Of a stretch of 64,000 nt of DNA, positions 34,361-46,166 are shown in pieces (position 1 is the first letter of the stretch; each line of letters opens with the position of its first letter). A program made the translations under genes and the position numbers. The notes below the pieces were generated by a model. It was not told the DNA's origin, did no database searches, and saw only the letters and a program-made list of their open reading frames with translations. Source of the stretch: Sulfurihydrogenibium sp. YO3AOP1 (lineage in GTDB: Bacteria; Aquificota; Aquificia; Aquificales; Hydrogenothermaceae); NCBI RefSeq assembly GCF_000020325.1, contig NC_010730.1, forward strand, positions 608,001 through 672,000, read 5' to 3'.

Positions 34361-34732
34361 CTACCCCTGTTTTATATTAAGGTAAGTCAAAGCTATTCCG
34401 GCTAAAACAAGAATTGGCAAGCCTATGATGATGGTTACTACAATGGATAAAATACTTGCAATAGCTGACTTTTTAAAGTCTTCTTTGAATAAAATTTTAC
34501 CAAGATAAATCTGTATAAAAATAAGTAGTGTAAACATCAAAATAAGCGAGTAATGAGATAAATATTTTTCAGACAGAAGCTTAAAAGAGCCTGCTATCGT
34601 ATAGCTTATTAGCACAACTAAAAAAGACAAAAAGAAAGAAGTATTTTTATAGACAGCAAGCTTTGAAGAATACCAGTAAGAAAAGGTAGCAATCAATAAA
34701 AATGAAAAACCAACTATAAAATTATAAAGCAT
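34361..34732 (-). CDS. small integral membrane protein of unknown function
   Basis: The family is not recognised. The 123 residues form four hydrophobic helices (roughly 4-20, 32-51, 62-80 and 92-115). It follows midA after one base and ends the nuoCD-nuoI-midA run. A role near complex I is possible only by position. Confidence 0.6.
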   Translation of the reverse strand: MLYNFIVGFSFLLIATFSYWYSSKLAVYKNTSFFLSFLVVLISYTIAGSFKLLSEKYLSHYSLILMFTLLIFIQIYLGKILFKEDFKKSAIASILSIVVTIIIGLPILVLAGIALTYLNIKQG

Positions 34733-34733
34733 T

Positions 34734-35888
34734 TTACACCTCTATTTTGTACCTATCGCTTTCGTACGGAAGGTTTTTAAGTCCAGCAATGTCTGGATTT
34801 TGTATATTTTTTGATTGAATCAAAATTTTAAACTTTTCTCCCATTCCCTTTGGTAGGATTAAGGTTTTTAATCTGTTTAATCTCTCGTAAGATTTGTAAT
34901 CTCCTTTTTCTTGTAGTTCTTGAAAAATATCCATCAAACCAAGACTAATTAAAAAGTGTGCTTGGTCTGTAAAGCCTACAAAATCAAGCTTAGATTTTTT
35001 ACCATAGTAAACCAGCGCAGAGAAATTAACATGAGATGTTATATCTTGAAGACCAACATTTTGATAAAAGTTTTCGTTGTATGTGTGTTTATAATAACAA
35101 AGAAGCGTTCCCCTCATTCTGTATGGTTTATAGAGTTCTTTTGATGGATAGCCATAATCTATTGTAAAGACAAAGCCTTTTTCTAATTTATTTCCGATTT
35201 CTTGTATTAAATCCTTAGCATACAGATTTATTTCTGTTGTCATTCCTTCCGGAATATCAATGTTTAAATCTTTTAAATACTGTAAAATATCCTTCTGTGG
35301 CTCTTTTAAAACTTCTTTTATGTCATCACCTTCCAATGTTATATAAACTTCAAATATTTTGCCACCTATTTTCCTGATTAAGTGAACAGGTAATGCATCA
35401 AAAAGCTCGTTTGAGTATATGATGCCATTGATATTGTCAATTTCTGTTAAATCTTCATAGAAAGATACATTATCAAAATCTTTTAAAAGCTTTTTCTGAT
35501 AGTCTCTGTGGTATGGAGATTTTTCAACTGAGATGAATTCTAAAGTTTTATACAAATTTGGATAGTTATTTTTTATGTAAGATAAAACATCATAAGCAAG
35601 AAGCCCTTTTCCAGAACCTAACTCAGCTATCTGAAATTTTTGATTTTTAAAGTAATTTTCATAGATCTCATTAAACTGTTTTGCAAGAAGATTTCCAAAG
35701 GCAGGGTCTAACTCGCTTGATGTATAAAAGTCTCCAAGTCCTCCGATTTTTTCCTTTTCTGATGTGTAATATCCAAGATTTGGATAATAAAGAGCCATCT
35801 CCATAAAATCTTTAAAGGAGATAGCCCCTTCCTGCTGAATTTTTTGTTTAATTATATTAATTAACTCTTCTTTTCCGGTTAATTGCAT
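34734..35888 (-). CDS. midA: MidA/NDUFAF7-family protein arginine methyltransferase
   Basis: The mitochondrial member of this family dimethylates an Arg of NDUFS2 and is needed for complex I assembly. The 384-residue protein has the family opening ISFKDFMEMALYYPNLGYYT, GGLGDFYTSSELDPAFG and a SAM-binding IAELGSGKGLLAYDVL. IIYSNELFDALPVHLI and FTIDYGYPSKELY follow. It lies directly after nuoI (zero spacing) and nuoCD, whose NuoD part carries the matching Arg (HRGVEKL, Arg240). The context strongly suggests that it acts on NuoCD; this is inference. Confidence 0.88.
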   Translation of the reverse strand: MQLTGKEELINIIKQKIQQEGAISFKDFMEMALYYPNLGYYTSEKEKIGGLGDFYTSSELDPAFGNLLAKQFNEIYENYFKNQKFQIAELGSGKGLLAYDVLSYIKNNYPNLYKTLEFISVEKSPYHRDYQKKLLKDFDNVSFYEDLTEIDNINGIIYSNELFDALPVHLIRKIGGKIFEVYITLEGDDIKEVLKEPQKDILQYLKDLNIDIPEGMTTEINLYAKDLIQEIGNKLEKGFVFTIDYGYPSKELYKPYRMRGTLLCYYKHTYNENFYQNVGLQDITSHVNFSALVYYGKKSKLDFVGFTDQAHFLISLGLMDIFQELQEKGDYKSYERLNRLKTLILPKGMGEKFKILIQSKNIQNPDIAGLKNLPYESDRYKIEV

Positions 35889-36581
35889 TTAAGCTGTTTG
35901 ATCTTGGTAGTTAGGACCAAGTCTTGGCATGTTAAAGTCCCAAAGTTTTTCTCTTGTTTTATCGTATTCTGGCCATAACTTTTGGTCTTTTCTCCATTCT
36001 GATTTTTCATTAAACTTTTCTTTTCCTCTTCTTGCAACAAAATCATTTGCTATTTGAGTAAGCTTATCTTTATCTAAAACCCAGCTTTTTCTTGTGTAAG
36101 ATGAAAGGTCGTATATATCTGTCATGATGATACAATCGGTCGGGCATGCTTGGGTACATAAACCGCAAAATGTACATTTAGATAAATCCATGTTAAAAAC
36201 TGTCATTACTTTTAATCCATAATGTGGATGGTCTTCTGGAACATCAAGCTTTTCTGATTGGATATCAAAAAGCTCCGGTACTGGACAAGCTGCCTGACAA
36301 AACTTACAAGCAATACATCTTGTTTCTCCAGGTTCTGGCGGCTTAATCTTCAATCTTTTCACCCAACTATCAAATTCAGGATTTTCCGTTCCATCTACTG
36401 TTCTAAGTCCGTGAATTCCTCTAAATCTTGGTGGTGGAGTAACCACTTCGTAAGGAAAGTCAACAGTTATTACCTTTTTCCAAAGATGCTTTATTGTAGT
36501 TTTTAATCCTTTTATAAAATCTAAGAAAAATATTTTTTCTACAAGGGTTTGTGGTTTTGCTCCTACTTTTTTAATTCCCAT
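35889..36581 (-). CDS. nuoI: NADH-quinone oxidoreductase subunit I
   Basis: NuoI carries two 4Fe-4S clusters in the peripheral arm of complex I. The 230-residue protein has RFRGIHGL near residue 50, the first cluster CIACKFCQAACPVPE and the second CTFCGLCTQACPTDCI. An extended C-terminal tail of about 80 charged residues (LWPEYDKTREKLWDFNMPRL) makes it longer than E. coli NuoI (180). It lies 12 bp after nuoCD. The other nuo genes are not in this window. Confidence 0.93.
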   Translation of the reverse strand: MGIKKVGAKPQTLVEKIFFLDFIKGLKTTIKHLWKKVITVDFPYEVVTPPPRFRGIHGLRTVDGTENPEFDSWVKRLKIKPPEPGETRCIACKFCQAACPVPELFDIQSEKLDVPEDHPHYGLKVMTVFNMDLSKCTFCGLCTQACPTDCIIMTDIYDLSSYTRKSWVLDKDKLTQIANDFVARRGKEKFNEKSEWRKDQKLWPEYDKTREKLWDFNMPRLGPNYQDQTA

Positions 36582-36593
36582 GTTTAAAACCTC

Positions 36594-38324
36594 CTATCTG
36601 TCCGTTTCTCCAACAACTGGGTCTATGGTTGAAAGTAAAGTAATTGCATCTGCAATCGGTCTTCCAATGATTGCTTTTGTAAATACTTGTAGATTATAAA
36701 ATGCACCGGATCTAATTCTCATTCTGTGAGCTTTTAATCCATCTTTTTTATTGTAGATATAAAATCCAAGCTCACCTCTTGGGTTATCTGATGATGCGTA
36801 AGTTTCACCAGCTGGAAGTTTCATTCCTCTACCATCTATTGTTACTTTTAACTTTTTCTCATCCGGTGTTTGGAAGAAGTACGGGTCATCTTTAGACATT
36901 TTTCTAAGTTTAGCTATACACTGCTCTATTATTCTTATGCTTTGTCTCATCTCTTCCATTCTTACTAAGTATCTATCGTAAGAATCACCTTTTTCTCCAA
37001 CAGGAATATCAAACTCAACTTCTCCATAGGCATCATACTTATCTATTTTTCTAACATCATAAGGGACGCCAGAACCTCTTGCTACTGCTCCGGTTAAACC
37101 ATACTGATATACATCTTCTTCTGTAATAACACATACATCTTTATTTCTTGAGAGCCAAACTCTGTTTCTTGTTAAGAGTGTTTCGTAATCATTAATTCTT
37201 TGTGGAAGGTCTTTTATAAGATGTTCGATAGCATCTAAAGCTCCATAAGGTAAATCTGCAAATACTCCACCAATTCTAAAGTAATTTATTGTAAACCTTG
37301 CTCCGGTAATTCCTTCTATAATATCCATTATTTTTTCTCTTTCTCTAAATGTATATAAGAACATTGTCAAAGCACCAAGGTCAAGGGCATAGGTTCCAAG
37401 CCAGAGAAGATGACTATTGATTCTTGAAAGTTCTGCCATCATAGTTCTAATCCATTTTGCCTTTTCTGGCACTTCTATTCCAAGCATTTTTTCTGCTGCT
37501 AAAACATAAGCATGGTTTTCATTTATTGCTGCGATATAGTCCATTCTGTCTGTGTAAGGTATAAACTGCTGCCAGTTGACATTTTCGCCAAGCTTTTCAA
37601 CACCTCTATGAAGCTGACCGATGATAATATCACATTGTTTTACATATTCACCGTCTAAGTCAAATAAAAACCAAATTGTACCGTGTGTTCCCGGGTGAAG
37701 CGGTCCCCAGTTTAACACTATTTGAGATGTTTTTACCGGCATTCTTTTTTTCTGTGTTATTTCTAAATCTTCCATTGTTGGAAGGGCTGTATGCATTCTA
37801 TCGTAATTAAATAAACCTTCTAAATTTTCTCCTCTCAAAGTTTCGTTTAGAGATGGCAGCTCAGTGTCTTTTATACCTTCAAGCGGAAAGTCTTTTCTGA
37901 GTGGATGGTATGGATAGGTCTCCCATAGCAACATTCTGACTAAATTTTCATGACCTTCAAACTTTATACCAAACATATCCCAAGCTTCTCTTTCAGCCCA
38001 TTTTGCACCTTTCCAAAGGTTTGTAAGTGTTGGAAGCGTTTCGTTTTCCGCCCATGTTTTGACGATTATTCTTTCTTGATTTTTTGGAGAAAATAGAATA
38101 ACTACTCCTTGAAATCTTGGGTTTTCTTTTTCTCCATGGTCTATTATCGTAAGGTCTATAAACATTTTGAATTGATATTCCGGATCTTCTTTTAAGAATG
38201 TTAGAAATTCTATGAATTTATCTTTTGGCACTTCTACAGATAAAACACCCTTTCCCTCTGAAACCTTTGGATATCCAAACCTTTCTTCCAACTTTTTAGC
38301 TTTTTCTAAGCTTATCCATGCCAT
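36594..38324 (-). CDS. nuoCD: fused NADH-quinone oxidoreductase subunit C/D
   Basis: The 576 residues join NuoC (about 1-190; EREAWDMFGIKFEGHENLVR, YPYHPLRKDFPLEG) to NuoD (about 195-576; VLNWGPLHPGTHGTIW, GQLHRGVEKL, PYTDRMDYIA). The NuoD C-terminus has the family's DPVVGETDR ending. NuoD lines the quinone pocket. Arg240 in LHRGVEKL corresponds to the position methylated in mitochondrial NDUFS2. It heads the nuoCD-nuoI-midA operon. ATG at 38324 follows GAGAGGCAGAAAGGT. Confidence 0.94.
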   Translation of the reverse strand: MAWISLEKAKKLEERFGYPKVSEGKGVLSVEVPKDKFIEFLTFLKEDPEYQFKMFIDLTIIDHGEKENPRFQGVVILFSPKNQERIIVKTWAENETLPTLTNLWKGAKWAEREAWDMFGIKFEGHENLVRMLLWETYPYHPLRKDFPLEGIKDTELPSLNETLRGENLEGLFNYDRMHTALPTMEDLEITQKKRMPVKTSQIVLNWGPLHPGTHGTIWFLFDLDGEYVKQCDIIIGQLHRGVEKLGENVNWQQFIPYTDRMDYIAAINENHAYVLAAEKMLGIEVPEKAKWIRTMMAELSRINSHLLWLGTYALDLGALTMFLYTFREREKIMDIIEGITGARFTINYFRIGGVFADLPYGALDAIEHLIKDLPQRINDYETLLTRNRVWLSRNKDVCVITEEDVYQYGLTGAVARGSGVPYDVRKIDKYDAYGEVEFDIPVGEKGDSYDRYLVRMEEMRQSIRIIEQCIAKLRKMSKDDPYFFQTPDEKKLKVTIDGRGMKLPAGETYASSDNPRGELGFYIYNKKDGLKAHRMRIRSGAFYNLQVFTKAIIGRPIADAITLLSTIDPVVGETDR

Positions 38325-44882: not shown

Positions 44883-46166
44883 TAAAATAATGTTGTGTCT
44901 AAATAAAATTATAAGGAGGAATAGTAATGGATAAGAAAGAATACTTTGAAAAAATATTAGACAGATCTACCGAAGAATTAGTAAAAGAACTTTTCCCAAA
45001 CGGTATAACAACTCAAGAAGAAAAGATAGGTATAAGAAAGCTTTTAGAATCTGTTGTGGAACTGATTATGAATCAGGAAAGAAATTTCTTCCTTGAAAAT
45101 GATGAAGACAACAAAGCAAACGGATATTATGAAAGAAGCCTAAATACTGGTTCTTTCAAGCTTAACATAAATGTCCCAAGAGATAGAAAGGGTAGATTTA
45201 GACCACAAATATTACCTGACCCTTACAAAAGAGTTAATGAAGATTACATAAACCTTCTTATGAGTTTAGTATCCAATGGATACTCAGAAAGCAAGATAGA
45301 TTCTACATTAAAAAGCTTGGGCTTAAACTACTCAAAACAACATATGGATAAAATCAAAAAAGAGCTTATAGAAAGACTTAATGATTTTAAAACAAGAGAG
45401 CTTCCATCGGATGCATTTGTACTGTATATAGACGCATATCACTGTGATATAAAAGAGAAAAACAAAATCAGAAAGGCTTCTGTCTATGTAGTTCTTGGAA
45501 TAGATTTACAAGGAAATAAAGATATATTTGGATTTTATACATTTTTCAGTAGTGAAAATAAAGCAGACTGGATAAAAGTATTCAATGATTTAATAGATAG
45601 AGGACTAAAAAGGGTAATGCTTATAGTAAGTGATGATTTTCCTGGGATAACAAAAGCCATAGAAACACTATTTCCTTATACAGACCATCAGCTATGTTTA
45701 GTCCATTTACAAAGAAACGTTAGAAATCAGATGGATAAAGAAGATTCACAAGTATTTAACAAAGAACTGAAAAACATAAAAGAAAACAGCTTAGATTATG
45801 AAGATGGATTAGAAAAATTAGATGATTTATGCGGTAGATTTAAGTCTAAATATCCAAGCTTTATAAAACATATTCAATCTAACAAAGAGAGATACTTATG
45901 TTTTTTAAAATATCCAGAAAATCTAAGAAAGCACATATACACAACAAATCCAGTTGAAAGTGTTAATAGCATGATAGAAAAGGTAAGAATAAATTTAGGT
46001 GGATATTTTCAATCTGTGGACATTCTTGAGATAAATCTGCTTATACAAAGAGACAATTTAAAGAATGGAAAATGGAAAAAGCCTATACCTGCTTTTAAAG
46101 GAGTCTCTTATGAAATTTTACAATTGTTTAATAAAAAGTTTTCAATCCAGACACAAAATTATTGAC
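44883..46166 (+). mobile_element. IS256-family (mutator-type) insertion sequence
   Basis: The ends carry inverted repeats: AATAATGTTGTGTCT at 44886-44900 and the reverse complement AATAATTTTGTGTCT at 46163-46149, 14 of 15 identical. The outer limits are set to within about 3 bp. No target duplication is seen: the flanking 8-mers are CTGGGAGT and AAGTCTCC. The single gene inside fills almost the whole element. Confidence 0.82.
44927..46165 (+). CDS. IS256-family transposase
   Basis: The 412-residue DDE transposase has the first Asp in LYIDAYHCDIKEK, the second in LIVSDDFPGITKAI and the Glu in YTTNPVESVNSMIEKVRINL. CLVHLQRNVRNQM, the family's C/D-x2-H signature, lies in between. The frame is intact and has a strong AAGGAGGA 6 nt before the ATG, so it may be active. 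Its last codons run into the right terminal repeat. Confidence 0.93.
   Translation: MDKKEYFEKILDRSTEELVKELFPNGITTQEEKIGIRKLLESVVELIMNQERNFFLENDEDNKANGYYERSLNTGSFKLNINVPRDRKGRFRPQILPDPYKRVNEDYINLLMSLVSNGYSESKIDSTLKSLGLNYSKQHMDKIKKELIERLNDFKTRELPSDAFVLYIDAYHCDIKEKNKIRKASVYVVLGIDLQGNKDIFGFYTFFSSENKADWIKVFNDLIDRGLKRVMLIVSDDFPGITKAIETLFPYTDHQLCLVHLQRNVRNQMDKEDSQVFNKELKNIKENSLDYEDGLEKLDDLCGRFKSKYPSFIKHIQSNKERYLCFLKYPENLRKHIYTTNPVESVNSMIEKVRINLGGYFQSVDILEINLLIQRDNLKNGKWKKPIPAFKGVSYEILQLFNKKFSIQTQNY

Follow-up and report, generated by a model that had tools for sequence, protein, structure and literature searches.

MidA, the S-adenosylmethionine (SAM)-dependent methyltransferase of the NDUFAF7/MidA family encoded directly behind a nuoCD-nuoI gene pair in a 64,000-nucleotide stretch of the Sulfurihydrogenibium sp. 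YO3AOP1 genome (NC_010730.1, positions 608,001 to 672,000; hereafter the window), is very probably a complex I arginine methyltransferase. In many bacterial phyla MidA very probably serves complex I as a dedicated factor, because it co-occurs with NuoD, is missing from ten Acidobacteriota genomes whose only NuoD is of the threonine (Thr) type, and is encoded beside nuo genes in separate lineages. Taken together, there is good reason to regard midA as the bacterial counterpart of NDUFAF7, whose product would dimethylate an arginine (Arg) of NuoD in the course of complex I assembly.

Symmetric dimethyl-Arg has been described in the NuoD of bovine, human, Pichia and Paracoccus complex I (PMC3750175, PMC8042128), and in human cells NDUFAF7 carries out this NuoD-type dimethylation (PMC3829151), in agreement with the first-pass annotation of the window, which had named NDUFAF7 as the enzyme that dimethylates an Arg of NDUFS2. 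By analogy with mitochondria and Paracoccus, NuoD would be the substrate of MidA, Arg240 of the window NuoCD the modified site and complex I assembly the process affected. MidA would most likely bind NuoD, in this organism the D portion of NuoCD, at an early stage of assembly and would symmetrically dimethylate the Arg of its HRGxEK motif. In mitochondria the modified Arg packs next to the N2 cluster of NuoB (NDUFS7) and helps NuoD and NuoB to lock together; service to complex I alone could be what has kept midA close to nuo genes in several lineages.

The three genes lie on the minus strand. nuoCD (36594..38324; 576 aa) encodes fused complex I subunits C and D, matching PF00346 (E = 5.6e-91) and PF00329 (E = 1.4e-39) in Pfam and exceeding the cut-off of NCBIfam model NF004739 (453 bits). 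nuoI (35889..36581; 230 aa) encodes a ferredoxin-type subunit with two [4Fe-4S] clusters, whose best NCBIfam matches are the NuoI models NF004538 (E = 1.2e-32) and TIGR01971 (E = 1.2e-29), both falling short of the curated cut-offs, and is followed by midA (34734..35888; 384 aa). A gap of 12 bp separates nuoCD from nuoI and one of 0 bp nuoI from midA, the midA start codon coming immediately after the nuoI stop codon, so that the open reading frames (ORFs) and coordinates of the first-pass annotation stand and its description of midA as following nuoCD-nuoI without a gap corresponds to a tight cluster. Arg240 (codon AGA, 37607-37605) lies within QLHRGVEKL and lines up with the Arg of mammalian LHRGTEKL (HRGTEK motif), as had been proposed; from the alignment it would be the equivalent of Arg85, the dimethylated residue of bovine and human NDUFS2, and is predicted to be methylated likewise.

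The first-pass annotation overlooked that the nuoCD-nuoI pair of the window is an orphan duplicate. A complete nuoA-B-CD-H-I-J-K-L-M-N operon with its own NuoCD and NuoI is located elsewhere in the genome, at about 907.6-918.3 kb, and its NuoCD keeps the Arg (QLHRGIEKL). There are four NuoD-family matches in the genome, the best being the main-operon NuoCD, which also scores higher than the window copy against the Aquifex NuoCD structure 7q5y_B (864 versus 748 bits). The substrate of MidA here could be either NuoCD paralogue, or both. Relatives in four genera retain the orphan nuoCD-nuoI pair together with midA.

The family identity of MidA is clear from both profile and structure matches. It matches PF02636 over model positions 1-248 of 249 (E = 2.4e-62, 211 bits), and in the PDB it matches the solved bacterial MidA structures 4f3n (E = 8.9e-40, residues 12-363) and 1zkd (E = 1.9e-23) as well as the NDUFAF7 homologue 5ztz (E = 1.5e-19, residues 18-363). 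Its SAM-binding glycine motif ELGSGKG and its NELFD motif coincide with columns that are invariant among 10 aligned Aquificota MidAs (E89, G91, G93, G95, N160, E161, F163 and D164). The genome that encodes it also carries complex I with the target Arg, both main-operon and window NuoCDs having HRGxEK. A MidA tree clusters for the most part according to phylum (15 changes across 11 groups, against a minimum of 10 and a shuffled mean of 44.9). With deep forks left unresolved and the three Aquificota families failing to come together, it does not date the origin of MidA. The MidAs of Aquificaceae are mostly about 310-330 aa long, with a large part of the N-terminal region of the window MidA absent from them, and around 14 Bacilli genomes, as counted from listed places, have two strong MidA copies.

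The co-occurrence of MidA with NuoD was surveyed in several bacterial groups. NuoD matches were termed canonical at E < 1e-160 and E. coli-like between 1e-160 and 1e-100, and MidA matches were taken as real at E < 1e-20 in Bacilli and < 1e-15 in Acidobacteriota, all of these thresholds having been set after the lists were seen; weaker PF02636 matches (16 in Bacilli, four in Acidobacteriota and six in Bacteroidota) were excluded as presumed methyltransferases of other kinds. Among 220 evenly drawn Bacilli genomes, strong MidA and NuoD above the cut-off occur in the same 111, neither occurs in the remaining 109, and none is discordant. A MidA profile scan gave 80 loci in many phyla; 50 of these were taken for a NuoD check and 49 searched, and NuoD exceeds the cut-off in 48 of the 49 genomes, the remaining one having its NuoD in pieces. 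In Pseudomonadota (n = 180), 130 of the 137 genomes with canonical NuoD have MidA, compared with one of the 20 in the E. coli-like score class, and the NuoD of that one is a fragment at a contig end. All 63 MidA-bearing Acidobacteriota (n = 139) have NuoD, and 17 have neither. MidA was found in 110 of 136 Aquificota; in families f3-f5, by a count made by eye, it accompanies NuoD at E < 1e-160 in 12 of 12 genomes versus two of the other 19, and in f1 and f2 nine of 105 genomes have NuoD and no MidA. Among 14 controls, E. coli, Thermus and Deinobacterium have NuoD and lack MidA. MidA thus nearly always accompanies complex I, whereas complex I does not imply MidA.

The state of the NuoD residue refines this picture. 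Arg occupies the motif in 30 of 30 loci in Bacilli and 30 of 30 in Aquificota, and Arg rather than Thr stands in the HxGxEK motif of the window NuoCD, as in the methylated complex I of the Paracoccus and mitochondrial type. Thermus has Thr at this site (PMC3750175, PMC8042128), and many Acidobacteriota likewise carry a Thr-type NuoD (LHTGxEK), either as the sole NuoD or together with a second, Arg-type complex I. Residues were examined in 23 MidA-bearing Acidobacteriota genomes, 10 of them through the cross-phylum NuoD check, and in a chosen subset of MidA-less ones, those with few listed NuoD matches being taken first and G588, with a sub-cut-off PF02636 match, being counted as MidA-less. Wherever one of these MidA genomes carries a Thr-type copy, an Arg-type copy accompanies it, and Thr is the sole state in none of the 23. 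Where a single NuoD match exceeds the cut-off, the MidA-less genomes comprise 10 with Thr and three with Arg, and the MidA-bearing genomes are all Arg (5/5; Fisher P = 0.0065, uncorrected for kinship).

Gene order provides further evidence, in particular lineages. Context was read for 36 of the 39 MidA genomes of Hydrogenothermaceae (one, at a contig start, was undeterminable, leaving 35 classifiable), 62 of 63 Acidobacteriota (30 of them with 1.5-kb flanks only), 16 of 57 Aquificaceae and eight of 14 genomes of f5, and a placeholder region enters none of the counts; we take the groups f1, f2 and f5 to be Hydrogenothermaceae, Aquificaceae and Desulfurobacteriaceae, in part after named relatives. 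In Hydrogenothermaceae midA adjoins the orphan nuoI in 22 of the 35 classifiable loci and does not in 13. The first-pass annotation had proposed that a random distribution of midA relative to nuo genes in related genomes would speak against its view; instead linkage follows genera, with g1, g6, g8 and g10 linked and g2, g3, g4, g7 and g9 unlinked. No linkage to nuo was seen in the loci read in Aquificaceae (0/16) or f5 (0/8), and Aquificota-wide gene order was rejected as evidence on these counts.

Outside Aquificota, three of the loci from the profile scan are linked to nuo: on a Magnetococcales contig nuoG to nuoN is followed by midA, on an Acidobacteria contig the order is nuoA-nuoB-x-midA, and on a Verrucomicrobiia contig nuoA lies beside midA. 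In 20 of the 86 Pseudomonadota genomes compared, midA and nuoD are 12.7-14.1 kb (one operon length) apart and nuoN adjoins midA; these genomes look to belong to the Magnetococcia stratum. In Acidobacteriota midA lies beside nuo genes in 13 of 62 loci and in at least six arrangements (nuoB-midA, nuoA-nuoB-midA, nuoI-nuoB-midA, nuoB-nuoI-midA, midA-nuoB-C-D and midA-nuoA-nuoB), most often next to nuoB; all eight midA-adjacent NuoBs that were checked score above the TIGR01957 cut-off. A neighbouring nuoB is informative, given that the NuoD Arg is close to the N2 cluster, which NuoB carries. Set against a chance linkage rate of 1.5%, our own generous estimate, midA-nuo adjacency exceeds chance, being shared in Hydrogenothermaceae and three other groups. 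The survey of linkage that the first-pass annotation called for is therefore positive for Hydrogenothermaceae, the Magnetococcia type, Acidobacteriota and one Verrucomicrobiia, and negative for the 24 other Aquificota loci and for 31 loci in Bacillota; a single conserved linkage across bacteria was rejected in view of the latter. No report of midA-nuo linkage in bacteria was found in the open-licence library searched.

The neighbours of midA also bear on the foremost alternative, that MidA, though dedicated to complex I, modifies another site or subunit, such as NuoB or NuoI, or acts as a chaperone. The closest neighbours are indeed nuoB in Acidobacteriota and nuoI in Hydrogenothermaceae, and the retention of Arg in Bacteroidota does not track MidA. 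However, the modification known from mammals and Paracoccus is on the NuoD Arg, Acidobacteriota with Thr-type NuoD only are without MidA, and known structures place NuoB at this very site (Hameedi 2021), so that linkage to nuoB fits NuoD methylation as well; we consider this alternative improbable. A general role for MidA, with adjacency arising by chance or hitchhiking, could draw on the fact that most midA loci outside the lineages named above are away from nuo and on the DNA methylation reported for Wolbachia MidA expressed in E. coli (PMC12455994), but it is already disfavoured, and very unlikely, given that MidA is present in 111 of 111 Bacilli with NuoD versus none of 109 without, that no MidA occurs without NuoD among the 139 Acidobacteriota and that nuo linkage recurs in unrelated lineages. 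That MidA and NuoD both merely mark a respiratory lifestyle, with no direct functional link, gains something from the kinship of the genomes and the lack of a control gene family, but is scarcely credible when genomes with E. coli-like NuoCD or Thr-type NuoD only have complex I yet lack MidA, and when gene order ties midA to nuo specifically.

Several observations weigh against MidA-dependent methylation of the NuoD Arg. Most MidA loci show no nuo linkage, including all 31 midA loci of Bacillota, read with flanks of up to 10 kb. In Pseudomonadota a full canonical NuoD is missing from seven of the 137 MidA genomes and MidA from seven of the 137 genomes with canonical NuoD, 59 of 122 Acidobacteriota with NuoD lack MidA, part of them keeping Arg, and among 148 Bacteroidota 131 have NuoD above the cut-off and one has strong MidA. 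The co-occurrence counts come from related genomes, not independent events, and have no control gene family beside them. Arg is kept without MidA in all 42 Bacteroidota NuoDs read and in four of four E. coli-type, gammaproteobacterial-like NuoCDs (HHRGAEK), and Arg-type NuoDs in further MidA-less Acidobacteriota speak against a strict rule. Paracoccus is, moreover, the only bacterium with dimethyl-Arg in the literature covered, and methylation in the organism of the window is inferred. That Bacteroidota and E. coli-type enzymes keep Arg where MidA is missing suggests that the residue has an independent role and that methylation by MidA is not universal; the conserved Arg as a sign of methylation was accordingly rejected. 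Several Bacteroidota NuoDs have an altered motif (HRAFEK, HRCFEK, HRAMEK or HRSIEK).

These considerations also qualify the first-pass claim that the modification is ancient and bacterial. Its direction is well supported by the co-occurrence and by linkages in other phyla, but the gene order and Arg on which it had been based are insufficient: the former comes from one family and an orphan nuoCD-nuoI copy, with none of 24 other Aquificota loci linked, and the latter is kept with or without MidA, as E. coli and Bacteroidota illustrate. It is an even bet whether MidA-dependent dimethylation of the NuoD Arg was ancestral and widespread in bacterial complex I (in Bacillota, Aquificota, Acidobacteriota and others) before mitochondria, having been lost in E. 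coli-type enzymes, Bacteroidota and Deinococcota and being needless where Arg was replaced by Thr, so that in genomes with both Thr-type and Arg-type complexes it would serve the Arg-type only. If true, a step in mitochondrial complex I assembly that is relevant to disease would be accessible in easily grown bacteria, where nature offers three classes of complex for comparison (Arg with MidA, Arg lacking MidA, and Thr); the role of dimethyl-Arg near N2, as an assembly lock or in redox tuning, would become directly testable, and the published “proteobacterial origin” would be broadened to several other phyla.

Elsewhere in the window, a membrane-like ORF of 123 aa (34361..34732, minus strand) begins 1 bp after midA and has no family match in Pfam or NCBIfam; it is a conserved neighbour of midA across Hydrogenothermaceae, even where midA is not beside nuo. 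A 412-aa ORF at 44927-46165 resembles, as judged by eye, a mutator/IS256-type transposase. A sequence scan for promoter-like (17 versus 17.5 expected) and terminator-like sites (3 versus 2.2 expected) was uninformative.

Compared with known systems, the window MidA resembles NDUFAF7 in belonging to PF02636, in its near full-length match to 5ztz and in having a partner subunit with the Arg target motif; it differs in that midA lies directly behind nuoI, that the NuoCD next to it is a paralogue, a complete nuo operon being present elsewhere, and that its activity is predicted from sequence. Paracoccus denitrificans offers a bacterial complex I with the same Arg as the window NuoCD, and its dimethyl-Arg65 (NDUFS2/Nqo4) has been seen by mass spectrometry and cryo-electron microscopy (PMC3750175, PMC11522691), a state that the window NuoCD would share. 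E. coli NuoCD resembles the window protein in its fused C and D subunits and its conserved Arg, fusion alone not separating the types, but unlike the window NuoCD, which has LHRGVEK and a MidA, it has no MidA, its Arg is described as unmethylated (PMC3750175), and the E. coli-type NuoCDs read have the HHRGAEK motif; E. coli complex I has also been placed in a clade of its own, clade E (PMC4859585). That MidA methylation arose in bacteria is already proposed, Shahul Hameed et al. (2018) having argued for a “proteobacterial” origin, and the present result extends that known system, the association of MidA with NuoD reaching Bacilli, Aquificota and Acidobacteriota.

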